Below, in pieces: positions 58,203-64,000 of a stretch of DNA of 64,000 bases. The notes under the pieces are model-generated. The model did no database searches. It worked only from the letters and a program-made list of their open reading frames with translations, and was not told the DNA's origin. The DNA is from Slackia faecicanis (GTDB taxonomy: Bacteria > Actinomycetota > Coriobacteriia > Coriobacteriales > Eggerthellaceae), in assembly GCF_003725295.1 (NCBI RefSeq), contig NZ_QICB01000007.1, positions 1 through 64,000 of the forward strand, in the 5' to 3' direction. Made by a program: the position numbers and the translations under genes. How positions within the stretch are numbered: position 1 is the first letter of the stretch; the number at the start of each line of letters is the position of its first letter.

Positions 58203-58402
58203 GTTGCAGGGCGAAGCCGCGGGGAAGAGGTCGAGGCGCGCTTGTGCCGTTCTTCGCGTTTTGCCCGCCCGGCCGCGCGGGCGCCCTTTCGCGCCGGCCT
58301 ATAATCGTGGACATTGTCCGACGCCCTCGCACGGAGGCGGCGCTTGCGGGCCCGTCGCGCGGGCCGCGTTTCGGTCGGACCGGTCAAAGCAAGGAGACGA
58401 AC

Positions 58403-59284
58403 GTGTCGTATGTTGAAATAACCAGTCTGGACGATCCTCGGCTCGATGCCTATGCGCGCCTGACCGAGGCCCAGCTGCGCAATAAGCTCGAGCCCGAGAA
58501 GGGCATCTTCATCGCCGAGAGCATCAAGGTGATCGATCGCGCGCTCGCGGGCGGCATGCAGCCCGTTTCGGTGCTGATGACGCCCGAATGGAAAGAGGCC
58601 GCGGCTTCGACGATCGAGGCGATCGAGCGTGCGGGCGCACAGCTTGGGCTCGATGTGCCGGTGTTCGTGGCGCCCGAGGCCGAGCTGAAGAAGCTGACCG
58701 GCTTCGCGTTGACGCGCGGCATCTTGTGCGCCATGCGCCGCCCCGCGCTGCTGAGCGTCGAGGAACTGCTGGCGGGCATCGACGAGGCCCGCGCCGCAGC
58801 GGAAAACGATGACGGCCGCCGCCGTATCGCCGTGCTGGAAGGCATCGTCGACCACACCAACGTCGGCGCCATCTTCCGCTCGGCCGCTGCGCTGGGCATC
58901 GATGCCGTGCTCGTCACGCCGACGTGCTGCGACCCGCTGTATCGCCGCGCCGTGCGCGTGTCCATGGGCACGGTGTTTCAGGTGCCGTGGACGCGCATCG
59001 GCGAAACCGTGCGCGATTGGCCCGCGGCGGGTCTGGAAACGCTGGGCAGGCTCGGCTACAAAACGGCGGCCATGGCGCTTTCGGACGATTCGGTTCCGCT
59101 GGGTGACGAAACGCTTGCCGCATGCGACAAGCTGGCGCTCGTGTTCGGCACCGAAGGCGACGGGCTGTCGCATCGCACGATCGAAGGGTGCGATTTCACG
59201 GTGCGCATCCCGATGATGCACGGCGTCGACAGCCTTAACGTGGCGGCCGCATCGGCGGTCACGTTCTGGGAGCTGTGTCGTTAG
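58403..59284 (+). CDS. TrmH/SpoU-family RNA 2'-O-methyltransferase
   Basis: The 293-aa SPOUT enzyme has the substrate-binding N-domain (IFIAESIKVIDRAL, about residues 30-100) and the knotted SAM domain: motif 1 LEGIVDHTNVGAIFRSAAALGID, motif 2 LALVFGTEGDGLSHRTI, and motif 3 VRIPMMHGVDSLNVAAASAV. Target may be tRNA G18 or a 23S ribose. GTG 58403 follows aaggag with ideal spacing; an upstream in-frame reading has no ribosome site. A TATAAT box lies at 58300-58305 without a clear -35. Confidence 0.92.
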   Translation: MSYVEITSLDDPRLDAYARLTEAQLRNKLEPEKGIFIAESIKVIDRALAGGMQPVSVLMTPEWKEAAASTIEAIERAGAQLGLDVPVFVAPEAELKKLTGFALTRGILCAMRRPALLSVEELLAGIDEARAAAENDDGRRRIAVLEGIVDHTNVGAIFRSAAALGIDAVLVTPTCCDPLYRRAVRVSMGTVFQVPWTRIGETVRDWPAAGLETLGRLGYKTAAMALSDDSVPLGDETLAACDKLALVFGTEGDGLSHRTIEGCDFTVRIPMMHGVDSLNVAAASAVTFWELCR

Positions 59285-59529
59285 CGGCATCGGCACGCGG
59301 CGCGGTTCGCGGGGGCGAATCGGGCGGAAGGATGCTTTTTCGACGGTCCGTCGGCGTTCGAGCCGGCGGACCGTCTTGCGTTCGAGGGGCTTGGGCGGGC
59401 CGCCGCTGCGAGCGGTCGGCTTCGCCGGGCGAAAGGAGTTACGCTGCGTTTTGCCTCGTTTTGATGAATTTCAAGGCGCCGCAAATTCCAGGAAAACTTT
59501 TTCCGGTGGGGGAGAAAGTTTTAAACACA

Positions 59530-59810
59530 AGATGCTGTGGAATCCACCAAGTTTTCAACATTCTTTGAGTAATAAGTGTAAAACAAGGTCTTAAGTTACT
59601 TTTCGATACTTGAATATATGGAAGAAAAACCCAAGGTGACACCAGGTGTTGTTGAAAACCCCTGCGTTATCAAGGTATGTGGAAGAAACTATTAACAAGA
59701 ATGTTGAAAAGTGTGTCTTGTTGAAAAAGTTATCAACAGTGAAAAAGCTTGCAGTTTTCAATAAAAAATTTAAAAAGTATTAGTAACTAAGTATTTATTT
59801 AATACTAATA
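59530..59810. other. Origin-like block: DnaA-box cluster with AT-rich unwinding region
   Basis: In this GC-rich genome the 280-bp segment is strikingly AT-rich and carries many DnaA-box-like nonamers in both orientations: ttttcaaca (59552), tgttgaaaa (59650, 59702, 59719), tgtggaaga (59678) and ttatcaaca (59730), plus weaker forms at 59536, 59667 and 59755. They are followed by a nearly GC-free tract (59760-59810) like a DNA unwinding element. This is the usual anatomy of oriC. No dnaA, dnaN or rpmH gene is adjacent, so a displaced chromosomal origin, one half of a bipartite origin, or a DnaA-titration site are all possible. Confidence 0.6.
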
Positions 59811-59890
59811 AGGTCGGCACGGTAGACTGAAAGGGAGCCGCCGAACAGCGCAATGGCGTGCTCGCATACGGCGTCGTGCGGCTGCGGCGT

Positions 59891-59957
59891 CATTCATGTT
59901 GGATGGAATCCAAGAAGCAATAAGAAACAGGGTTACTGATAGTAACCAACATGAATG
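59891..59957 (+). promoter_or_regulatory. Nested inverted repeats in the carbonic anhydrase leader
   Basis: cattcatgttgg (59891-59902) is the exact complement of ccaacatgaatg (59946-59957). A perfect ggttact/agtaacc hairpin (59931-59937 with 59941-59947) overlaps the latter by two bases, so the two structures compete. The ribosome site ggagg follows directly. The arrangement suggests leader-based translational control. Confidence 0.5.
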
Positions 59958-59968
59958 GAGGAACCGAA

Positions 59969-60496
59969 ATGATCATCGAGTTCAAGGGAATGCGTCCCGA
60001 CATCGATAAGGCGGCCTACATCGCGGAGAATGCGACCATCAGCGGCGACGTGACGCTCGGCGAGAACAGCTCCGTATGGTTCAACGCCGTCATGCGCGCC
60101 GAGGTGGCCCCCATCACCGTGGGCGCTCTGAGCAACGTGCAGGACCACGTGATGCTTCATGCCGATTACGATTGCCCCGTCACGATCGGCGACCGTGTTT
60201 CGATCGGCCACAGCGCCATCGTGCACGGCGCCACGATCGAAGACCGCGTGATCGTGGGTATGGGCGCCATCGTGATGAACGGCGCCGTCATCGGCGAAGG
60301 TTCCATCATCGCCGCGGGCGCGCTGGTGAAGGAGGGCATGGTCGTTCCGCCCTATTCGCTGGTGGCAGGCGTTCCCGGCGTGGTGAAGAAGACCTTCGAG
60401 CCCGGCCAGCGTCCGCAGGAGCACAACGACGAGGTGTACACCGACGACGCCTTCGCCTACGCCGCGGCCCCGCATTACCCGGTTCCCGTGAAATAG
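59969..60496 (+). CDS. Gamma-class carbonic anhydrase-like protein
   Basis: The 175-aa left-handed beta-helix protein has hexapeptide repeats throughout (for example ENATISGDVTLGENSSVWFN and VSIGHSAIVHGATIEDRVIVGMGAIVMNGAVIGEGSIIAAGALV). The metal-ligand histidines are visible in HVMLH and IGHSAIVHG, and the catalytic-loop context is SSVWFNAVMRAE. Family members hydrate CO2 or are inactive acyl-type homologues (YrdA/PaaY). ATG 59969 follows atggagga. A terminator follows at 60525-60547. Confidence 0.9.
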   Translation: MIIEFKGMRPDIDKAAYIAENATISGDVTLGENSSVWFNAVMRAEVAPITVGALSNVQDHVMLHADYDCPVTIGDRVSIGHSAIVHGATIEDRVIVGMGAIVMNGAVIGEGSIIAAGALVKEGMVVPPYSLVAGVPGVVKKTFEPGQRPQEHNDEVYTDDAFAYAAAPHYPVPVK

Positions 60497-60731: not shown

Positions 60732-60847
60732 AAAAAAGAAAGAACCCTTTCGGGTTCTTCGATTCCCATCTAAATGGGGCTGCTATATGCAGCGGGTGAG
60801 GCAGAGCCTTTATTTTGACTCGCAGCGTCACTCTGGGTAAGAGCAAC
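60732..60847 (-). ncRNA. tracrRNA of the type II CRISPR-Cas system
   Basis: Read on the minus strand, about 116 nt show every tracrRNA element. The 36-nt anti-repeat (60847-60812) ends in gcgagtcaaaat and leads into aaaataaaggctctgcc, very like the aaaataaggctagtccg nexus lead-in of the Streptococcus pyogenes tracrRNA. The nexus stem is ggc tct gcc (60808-60800). Hairpin 1 is gctgc-atata-gcagc (60793-60779), hairpin 2 cccat-ttag-atggg (60778-60765). The terminator is aagaaccc-gaaa-gggttctt (60759-60740) followed by TCTTTTTT. A promoter lies just upstream. It pairs with the crRNA repeat and guides RNase III processing and Cas9 loading. Confidence 0.85.
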
Positions 60848-60853
60848 GAGGGC

Positions 60854-60882
60854 ATAGTATCAAATGGGAGGGAGTGCTTCAA
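60854..60882 (-). promoter_or_regulatory. tracrRNA promoter, overlapping the cas9 ribosome site
   Basis: On the minus strand TTGAAG (60882-60877) and TACTAT (60859-60854) are separated by exactly 17 bp. Start would be near 60847, the first base of the anti-repeat. The -35 box ends two bases before the cas9 start codon and the spacer contains the cas9 ribosome site. Confidence 0.72.
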
Positions 60883-60883
60883 G

Positions 60884-63800
60884 GTGAATCTGAGGAACGT
60901 CGGTGATTACTATATCGGACTCGATATCGGCACGAACTCCGTCGGATGGGCCGTTGTCGATGAAGACGGCGATCTGTGTAAATTCAAAGGCAAGAATACG
61001 TGGGGGAGTCGTTTGTTCGATCAGGCGAAAACCGCCGCCGACACGAGGATGTCGCGCACGCTTCGTCGTCGTTACGGCCGCCGCAAGCAGCGAATCCAGG
61101 ACCTGCGCGCATTTCTCTATCCCGACATCGAAAAGGTCGATCCTGATTTCTTCTGCCGCATGGCTCAGTCGGCCCTTGTGAAGGATGATCGCGACTTTGC
61201 AAGTAAGTTCACCTTTTTCGTAGGTGACGAATACGACGATGCCGATTTCTATTCTCGCGAAGGCGGATATCCGACAATCTACCACCTCCGACATGCTCTG
61301 GTAACTTCGAGCGAGAAGGTGGATATACGCCTTGTGTACCTCGCCCTTCATCACATGATGAAGTATCGAGGCAATTTTTTGGTTGAGGGGGAGATGTCTG
61401 CGGCAGACGCCGATGCTGGTGCTGCTGTCGAGAATTTCCTTTCTGCGTTTGAGTTGTATTTCGAGGAAAAGGGAGTCGACTATCTTCGTCAGGACACCGA
61501 CGCAAGCGCTTTGATACTTGCGCTAGGCGACACTTCCAAAGTGAGGGCGGTGCGTCGAGATGATTTCGCTGCGGCCCTCGGGCTGCCGAAATCGGAGGCT
61601 GCTGCAGCGAAGGAGATAGCGAAGGCGGCATTCGGTTATAAGGCGAATTTCTCAAAGATCATTCCTCTAGACGAGGCGAGCGATGCGTCGTTCGCGCTTA
61701 GTGACGAGGCAAAGTCACAGAGCTTCGAGGACGAGGTGTTGCCCGAGGAGTATGCCGACCTTTACGCTTCGCTCAAGGAGTTGCACGGTGCCTATTTGCT
61801 TTCGGGTATTTTGTCCGACGCCCAGGGCGAAACTCTTTCCGCGGCAATGGTTCGTCGTTGGGAGGATCATCGTGCCGACCTGAAGAAGCTGAAGAGTCTT
61901 GTGCGACGCTATTGCCCCAAGGACGATCAGGGGGTCAATCGAATCTACAACTTGATATTCAGGGGCGCCCGCTATGCCGATGGCACGTATAAGAAAAAGA
62001 AAGATGCGAAGGGGTATACGTCCTACATTCTAGGAAGCGTCTCCCGCGATGATTTCTATGCGGAGCTAAAGAAGCAGATTGCTCCGTTTGCGGATTCTTT
62101 CGTTGATGACGATGCTCGATTCTGGGATGAGTCCCTGCAAAAGATGGAGGACGGAACGTTCCTGCGAAAACTCAGGACCAGCGAGAACGGCGCGATCCCC
62201 CATCAGCTCCATTTGGAGGAGATGCGAGCTGTTATCGATAATCAAAAAGCGTATTATCCTACCCTCGCCGAACACGGGGAAGAGATTTGCCAGCTACTCG
62301 CGTTTCGTCTGCCTTATTATGTGGGCCCCTTGGGTAAGGAAAGCAATCCGAATCGCAAGAAGCCGTTCGGGTGGGCCGTCCGCAAGCCGGGAAAAGAGTC
62401 CGAGCCCGTGCGCCCTTGGAACTTCGATGACGTCATCGATAGGGACGCGTGTGCGGAGGCGTTCATTACGAATTTGACTGGTGAGTGCAGCTACTACCTC
62501 GGTAAGAAGGTCATTCCTAAAAACTCTCTTCTGTACAGCGAATTTTGCGTTCGTCAGGAACTTAACGTATGCAAACATGATGCCGACGGCGAGCGGTTTG
62601 TCCGCATGGATGTCGAAACGGTGCAGGCGATCTACGATGATGTATTCAAGAAGAAAACTCGCGTGAAGGTCGCGGATGTCGAGGAGTACCTGAAGAGCCG
62701 TTTCGGGTCTCACTATAAGATCAAGGGCACTCAGCGTGAAACGGAGTTTGCGTCTTCGTTGCGCTCGTATGTCGATTTCGCTTGCATTCTTGAGCGCCCC
62801 ATTGAAACGTTTGAGGACTACGAGATGGTTGAAAACCTTATCTTGTGGGTTACGGTGTTCGAGGACAAGGACATACTCAAGCGGCGCGTCAACACGACGT
62901 ATGGCCCTGTCGAGTGCGGTGGAAACGGTGCTCTTTCGCGTGCTCAGGTGAAGCGTATTTGTAAGCTGCGTTATACGGGCTGGTCCAATTTGTCCCGGGA
63001 ATTCCTCGAGGAGTTGAGGGTTGATTATCAGGGTCGCAGCACCTGCATTATGGACGTGCTGCGCGATAGCGATCGATCGACCCCCATGAACCTGATGGAG
63101 ATTCTTGCCGACGAAAGGTTCGGTTTCAAACCGCTTCTCGATGCAAGGAACCAGGAGTTTTTGCACAATAGGTCAAATGACTTGCTGGATGACATTCCTG
63201 GGTCTCCCGCAATTAAACGCGGCATCAATCAGAGCCTGAAAATCGTCGATGAAATCGTTTCGATCGTCGGTCATGCGCCTGCGAAGATTTGCGTAGAGAT
63301 GGCTCGCGAGGAAGTGGGCAAGACAAAGGGCAAGCGCACTACGACTCGTTATAAGCAAATAGAAAACCTGTATGCCGCCATTACGAAAGACATGGCTCTA
63401 TACGAGGGGCAGAAGGACCTCAAGAGCGAACTGTCTAGGCATAAAGACGGATTGGATAGCAAGCGTCTCTATCTGTATTTTCTCCAACGTGGAAAGTGTG
63501 CATATAGCGGCGAGCCGCTGGATATAGCGAACTTGTCCCTTTATCACATCGACCACATTGTGCCTCAATCGGTCGTGAAGGACGATTCCATCGACAACAT
63601 GGTGCTGGTGAAGCAGTCCGAAAACGAACGCAAGCTTGACGAGTATCCGCTGCCTGCCGCCATGCGCAGCCGTTGTTTCGCTCGATGGGCCAGTTGGCAT
63701 GATGCGAAGCTGATGAGTGATAAAAAATTCAATGCTCTGACGACCGACAGGGTGACCGATCGCCAGGCGAAGGGATTCATCAACAGGCAGCTTGTTGAAA

Positions 63801-64000
63801 CGCGTCAGATTTCGAAGCACGTCGTTACATTGTTGCAATCGATTTATCCCGACTCGACGATCGAAACGGTCAAGGCGGAGCTTTCCCATAATCTTCGAGT
63901 GCAGTATGGGTTCTATAAGGTGCGTGCCGTGAACGATTGGCATCATGCTCATGATGCCTACTTGGCATGTCAGCTCAGCAGATTCGTGGCGACTCGTTTT
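60884..64000 (+). CDS. cas9: Cas9 endonuclease, type II CRISPR (3' end beyond window)
   Basis: The frame is open from GTG 60884 to the window edge, giving 1,039 residues. RuvC-I reads YYIGLDIGTNSVGWAV with Asp14. The Arg-rich bridge helix is about residues 55-74 (RMSRTLRRRYGRRKQRIQDL). The REC lobe spans about 75-790. RuvC-II is ICVEMAREE with Glu805. The HNH domain has YHIDHIVPQS with His891, followed by DDSIDNMVLV. RuvC-III is WHHAHDAYL with His1021 and Asp1024. The spacing resembles S. pyogenes Cas9 (762, 840, 983), so the full protein is probably about 1,350-1,400 aa, with the PAM-interacting part outside the window. A ggagggag ribosome site lies nine bases before GTG. No catalytic residue is missing in the visible part. 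Confidence 0.97.
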   Translation, partial: MNLRNVGDYYIGLDIGTNSVGWAVVDEDGDLCKFKGKNTWGSRLFDQAKTAADTRMSRTLRRRYGRRKQRIQDLRAFLYPDIEKVDPDFFCRMAQSALVKDDRDFASKFTFFVGDEYDDADFYSREGGYPTIYHLRHALVTSSEKVDIRLVYLALHHMMKYRGNFLVEGEMSAADADAGAAVENFLSAFELYFEEKGVDYLRQDTDASALILALGDTSKVRAVRRDDFAAALGLPKSEAAAAKEIAKAAFGYKANFSKIIPLDEASDASFALSDEAKSQSFEDEVLPEEYADLYASLKELHGAYLLSGILSDAQGETLSAAMVRRWEDHRADLKKLKSLVRRYCPKDDQGVNRIYNLIFRGARYADGTYKKKKDAKGYTSYILGSVSRDDFYAELKKQIAPFADSFVDDDARFWDESLQKMEDGTFLRKLRTSENGAIPHQLHLEEMRAVIDNQKAYYPTLAEHGEEICQLLAFRLPYYVGPLGKESNPNRKKPFGWAVRKPGKESEPVRPWNFDDVIDRDACAEAFITNLTGECSYYLGKKVIPKNSLLYSEFCVRQELNVCKHDADGERFVRMDVETVQAIYDDVFKKKTRVKVADVEEYLKSRFGSHYKIKGTQRETEFASSLRSYVDFACILERPIETFEDYEMVENLILWVTVFEDKDILKRRVNTTYGPVECGGNGALSRAQVKRICKLRYTGWSNLSREFLEELRVDYQGRSTCIMDVLRDSDRSTPMNLMEILADERFGFKPLLDARNQEFLHNRSNDLLDDIPGSPAIKRGINQSLKIVDEIVSIVGHAPAKICVEMAREEVGKTKGKRTTTRYKQIENLYAAITKDMALYEGQKDLKSELSRHKDGLDSKRLYLYFLQRGKCAYSGEPLDIANLSLYHIDHIVPQSVVKDDSIDNMVLVKQSENERKLDEYPLPAAMRSRCFARWASWHDAKLMSDKKFNALTTDRVTDRQAKGFINRQLVETRQISKHVVTLLQSIYPDSTIETVKAELSHNLRVQYGFYKVRAVNDWHHAHDAYLACQLSRFVATRF

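Follow-up and report, generated by a model that had tools for sequence, protein, structure and literature searches.

The DNA between a spoU gene and a hexapeptide-repeat gene of Slackia faecicanis carries a rigidly spaced group of DnaA boxes that is probably an oriC-derived, distal DnaA-binding locus, modulating the timing of initiation and having arisen once, in one clade of the gut bacterium Slackia. The window, that is, the whole stretch of 64,000 nucleotides that was analyzed, has a GC content of 62%, and the parts of the locus are arranged within it as follows.

58244 to 59284, + strand: SpoU rRNA methylase gene (PF00588, E 1.2e-31; homologous part from about 58388)
59502 to 59509, + strand: left-flank motif TCCGGTGG, recognized in alignments and largely kept in the decayed G009 copy too
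59518 to 59746, + strand: conserved DnaA-box element, non-coding, 229 bp, of equal length in five species
59550 to 59584, + strand: 35-bp oriC-type module, 30/35 matches to the family oriC consensus (profile R2, E 3.6e-5)
59552 to 59560, + strand: DnaA box TTTTCAACA, exact, invariant in five species and kept in G009
59650 to 59658, - strand: DnaA box TTTTCAACA, exact, invariant in five species and kept in G009
59678 to 59686, - strand: DnaA box TCTTCCACA, one mismatch, invariant in five species
59702 to 59710, - strand: DnaA box TTTTCAACA, exact, replaced by TTTTCCACA in G008 and G010
59719 to 59727, - strand: DnaA box TTTTCAACA, exact in 4/5 species, back to back with the box at 59730
59730 to 59738, + strand: DnaA box TTATCAACA, exact, invariant in five species
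59755 to 59809, no strand assigned: AT-rich tract of DUE-like composition; the composition, not the sequence, is conserved
59969 to 60496, + strand: hexapeptide-repeat protein gene (PF00132, E 8.7e-17), which we take to be of the gamma-carbonic-anhydrase type

The clustering of the boxes is far beyond what composition would produce. Five of the six exact TTWTCMACA boxes in the window fall within 187 bp (59552-59738), and one-mismatch boxes occur around them at 59519(+), 59678(-) and 59755(+). A whole-genome pattern count found 44 exact boxes in the 1,995,252 bp of this Slackia genome compared with 17 copies of the reversed control pattern, indicating that the box itself is enriched. Across the genome, a span of 187 bp with five such sites is expected about 5e-10 times, and in 5000 dinucleotide shuffles of the element five boxes never occurred (maximum 2, mean 0.08). 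Genome-wide there are two box clusters: the distal element has 5 boxes in 187 bp, and the spacer between rpmH and dnaA has 7 in 636 bp. The best 50 bp of the adjoining AT tract, at about 59755-59811, are 90% AT, the highest AT content of any 50 bp in the window. An earlier, sequence-only reading had recognized the anatomy of oriC here, with clustered DnaA-box-like nonamers in both orientations beside a 50-bp tract nearly free of G and C, and with a SpoU methyltransferase and a carbonic anhydrase gene as neighbors. This description was borne out: five exact and three one-mismatch boxes were located next to an AT-rich tract that is extreme for the window, the neighbors match PF00588 and PF00132, and the element additionally bears a copy of the oriC module of the family. 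Just 5' of the hexapeptide gene, a 12-bp perfect inverted repeat, CATTCATGTTGG/CCAACATGAATG (window 59891-59957), surrounds a second palindrome, GGTTACTgaTAGTAACC, and is perhaps an operator.

The element is under strong constraint. In the alignment of five species it has zero indels and a mean column identity of 91%, with invariant columns making up 52 of the 54 box positions versus 116 of 175 in the rest of the element. Even the box at 59702, which alternates between TTTTCAACA and TTTTCCACA among the five, is an exact box in both forms. Between this genome and that of a congener, G005, the identity of the element is 83% (0.83), compared with 0.40 at the fourfold-degenerate sites of spoU and 0.46 at those of dnaA. 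Conservation of a protein was ruled out by stops in all six frames in each of the five species. The 80 bp that follow the element are 68-80% AT in all five, and their sequence itself is not conserved. In the same pair of genomes, the dnaA-proximal oriC is locally 74% identical over 143 bp. This region between rpmH and dnaA aligns only in gapped pieces, so that the distal element has been preserved better than oriC itself, which suggests that the element probably helps to control the start of DNA copying.

The main origin lies elsewhere. An ordinary, box-rich oriC is present in this genome between rpmH and dnaA, on a contig (C8) other than that of the element. In G005, a near-complete, element-bearing assembly of two large contigs, the cumulative GC skew, read from sampled 20-kb stretches of this one relative, reaches its lowest point at C2:67,360, less than 3 kb from dnaA (C2:64,565), and has a second switch near C1:0.82 Mb. 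The element of G005, at C1:72.9 kb, lies within a long, uniformly positive skew with no change at the site; joining the contigs according to the sign of the skew places it about 314 kb from dnaA, or 15% of the chromosome, inside one replichore. The contig of the window is collinear with this region of G005 over about 96 kb, and no change of skew sign was found at the element on it either. The skew minimum at dnaA and the uniform skew at the element indicate that it is neither the main origin nor part of a bipartite origin around dnaA. A bipartite oriC is defined by two box clusters in the intergenic regions on either side of dnaA (PMC5295017), a position far from that of the element. The sequence-only reading had proposed a true origin displaced from dnaA or one half of a bipartite origin and had named a switch in cumulative skew as support for an origin; in G005 that switch falls at dnaA, and neither proposal is supported.

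The relationship to oriC is apparent in a 35-bp module, roughly AGTTTTCMACAATTTTTGAATAAAAAGTGGAAAAC, which was present at oriC in all Slackia and Eggerthellaceae genomes inspected by eye and consists of a box, a 14-bp AT-rich center and an inverted degenerate box. Chance was rejected as the explanation for weak matches of profile R1 in other genera, most of which proved to be the dnaA-linked oriC module. Profile R2 was built solely from dnaA-linked copies of the module. At a threshold of E<=0.01 it matches 108 of 138 genomes of the family, and all of its best 30 loci adjoin dnaA, rpmH or dnaN. Two loci in this genome pass the threshold, namely oriC (E 1.3e-12) and the element (E 3.6e-5). Among the copies of the element elsewhere, R2 gives 2.3e-5 in G007 and 8.4e-4 in G005, with weak values in G010 (0.097) and G008 (0.38), and the module scores of all five copies exceed 1000 of 1000 shuffles. 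When the boxes were fixed and the center was shuffled, the copy in this genome was equaled by 3 of 5000 shuffles but that of G005 by 265 of 5000, a marginal value, which makes descent of the element from an ancestral copy of oriC likely rather than certain. The common module could also reflect convergence on a favorable layout for a DnaA oligomer. The element thus shares the 35-bp module, the box types and the AT-rich surroundings with the oriC of the Eggerthellaceae. In contrast, it is not at dnaA, shows no skew switch, and has no exact copy of the conserved GAATAAAA center or of the GGAAAA flank.

Several observations concern the origin at dnaA. A palindromic module of 35-55 bp (L003:18176-18227; dnaA-linked loci L194-L223) marks oriC in most Eggerthellaceae and could serve for annotating oriC across the family. 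At dnaA, the first module box reads CTTTC, not TTTTC, in the five species whose element is intact (L003, L168-L172). In G009, where half of the element is lost, the first box of the dnaA module is intact, a possible compensation seen in one case only. Two genomes of another genus (L034 and L037) carry oriC between dnaA and an upstream, divergently oriented dnaN. A search of titles and abstracts in an incomplete literature collection found no paper on the origins of Slackia or Eggerthella.

The element is restricted to one part of the genus. A profile search of genomes that are mostly draft or metagenome assemblies found it intact in five Slackia species and decayed in G009, a sixth that retains the left half and two of the boxes. 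Since the right half has been lost there, at least one lineage can dispense with the element. The six element-bearing Slackia form one clade in a DnaA tree (SH-aLRT 97). By the SpoU protein, the nearest named relatives are Slackia. The element was not found in the other six Slackia genomes or the rest of the family, nor beside spoU across the Coriobacteriia outside the Slackia clade. Among 398 genomes of the class there was no similar element apart from one borderline match in G056 (E 7.5e-5), which contains no exact box. A plasmid or phage origin that had moved into the chromosome was rejected as a source, as there was no match in plasmids, phages or IMG/VR. In most members the element is flanked by spoU and the hexapeptide-repeat gene. 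Downstream of it in G010 there is an antiporter gene and no hexapeptide gene, and in G008 the element is beside an HNH-domain gene on a 3.2-kb contig, possibly misbinned, with spoU adjoining rpoB. Given these differing neighbors, the element does not seem to be tied to them.

Other features were noted in the course of these comparisons. A Cas9 gene (PF16592, PF13395, PF22702) begins within window 60815-64000, in a stretch of about 7.8 kb that continues to about C7:68300 and is missing at the collinear place in G005. It therefore seems that a CRISPR-Cas9 locus was inserted immediately 3' of the hexapeptide gene. Further groups of DnaA boxes are found in other Slackia. G004, which has no copy of the element, contains another distal cluster, four boxes of the same orientation within about 200 bp and far from dnaA (L163:4451-4652). 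Groups of boxes lie directly upstream of dnaB in G002 and, judged by position, in G003 (L165:3940-3965, L162:3713-3811), and the pair in G002 weakly matches the oriC module. In G003 a pair also precedes a ribonucleotide reductase gene, named by eye as nrdD-like (L166:4829-4863).

Distal DnaA-box clusters of the Streptomyces and Bacillus type are characterized by binding of DnaA and by early or excess initiation on deletion. The element resembles these clusters in being a significant group of boxes outside oriC in non-coding DNA, and Streptomyces is also an actinobacterium. The Slackia block differs in being rigid over 229 bp, in containing the oriC module and in being better conserved than oriC. 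Distal clusters were described in Streptomyces coelicolor (Smulczyk-Krawczyszyn 2006) and as DBCs in Bacillus subtilis (Okumura 2012), both cited in a review which states that chromosomal clusters repress untimely initiation in both groups (PMC5742627). On the Bacillus clusters, another review takes a more cautious view (PMC5295017).

Like the Escherichia coli locus datA, characterized by about five boxes in non-coding DNA away from oriC, the element is non-coding and has five to seven boxes, and its relative distance from oriC is similar (about 467 kb of 4.64 Mb for datA and about 314 kb of 2.11 Mb for the element). In datA, an IHF-binding site lies between the boxes, and the locus promotes the hydrolysis of DnaA-ATP or titrates DnaA. 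No match to the IHF consensus WATCAANNNNTTR, which is that of E. coli and may not fit the proteins of Slackia, was found in the element, and one-mismatch sites are not conserved. The order of the boxes also differs, and the two loci are not homologous. Strong selection on spacing is known for datA as well (PMC4585315). DARS1 and DARS2 are likewise non-coding groups of DnaA boxes at fixed spacing. The core of DARS1 is a convergent pair, box I-II, with 14 bp from start to start; it is absent from the element, whose close pair is back to back at 11 bp. The three-box core of DARS is also absent, the boxes being at +160, -174 and -186 in DARS1 and at -59702, -59719 and +59730 in the element. With neither the DARS1 core nor a conserved IHF site, membership of either class was rejected; the element would at most work like them.

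A mechanism can be proposed on these grounds. The seven DnaA boxes at fixed spacing would allow DnaA to assemble into an ordered oligomer on the element, and this oligomer may sequester DnaA or alter its nucleotide state. The locus, about 15% of the chromosome away, would be duplicated soon after oriC fires, lowering DnaA after each initiation and preventing premature re-initiation. As with datA, early replication of the site would make its effect increase soon after initiation. A DnaA sink, the third proposal of the sequence-only reading, is compatible with all of the findings, and a sink, a reactivation site and a conditional origin would look alike at the level of sequence.

DnaA might instead act at the element as a transcription factor, controlling the gene of the gamma-carbonic-anhydrase type or spoU. 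The position upstream of the hexapeptide gene in most members and the box pairs upstream of dnaB and nrdD in other Slackia are consistent with such a role. It is nonetheless unlikely, as the gene lies at varying distances (about 220 bp here versus 462 bp in G005), no hexapeptide gene is downstream in G010, the G008 element is beside an HNH gene and apart from spoU, and 229 bp at fixed spacing exceeds what a promoter operator needs.

A secondary or conditional origin, at which DnaA would assemble, open the adjoining AT-rich tract and occasionally load replisomes, is also improbable. The oriC module, the boxes in both orientations, a rigid spacing like that of a minimal oriC, the AT tract in all five species and a conservation above that of the dnaA-proximal oriC all argue for it. 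However, the skew does not inflect at the element, either in G005 or on the contig of the window, the sequence of the AT tract is not conserved, and half of the element is lost in G009. There is a small chance that, in one Slackia clade, oriC was copied to this place by transposition and that the copy now serves as a second, conditional origin dependent on DnaA, with selection on it exceeding that on the main origin; if so, this would be a bacterium with two functional chromosomal origins.

It is equally doubtful that the element is a non-coding RNA or a site for another DNA-binding protein with a motif like the DnaA box. The indel-free conservation would suit either, and folding of the minus strand is somewhat stronger than that of shuffles (z -2.4). 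However, the covariation term is unfavorable, with double changes in only 2 of 55 predicted pairs, and two DnaA boxes make up the long hairpin, which is broken where one box becomes the alternative box. An RNA gene was rejected on this lack of real covariation together with the absence of an Rfam match in the element. Against another protein, the same box variants and the module occur at the oriC beside dnaA. Finally, its conservation above that of the dnaA-proximal region notwithstanding, the element is very unlikely to be the true, displaced oriC, since the skew minimum of G005 is near dnaA, uniform skew surrounds the element about 314 kb from there, and every element-bearing species has the oriC module at dnaA.

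Overall, a distal DnaA-binding locus that modulates the timing of initiation is the preferred interpretation. To our knowledge, the only well-studied distal DnaA-box loci are those of E. coli, with those of Bacillus and Streptomyces known in less detail. Having arisen once in a small clade, with a tighter constraint than that of oriC and a decay that has begun in one species, the oriC-like Slackia element would make the gain and loss of a replication-control locus testable in close relatives.
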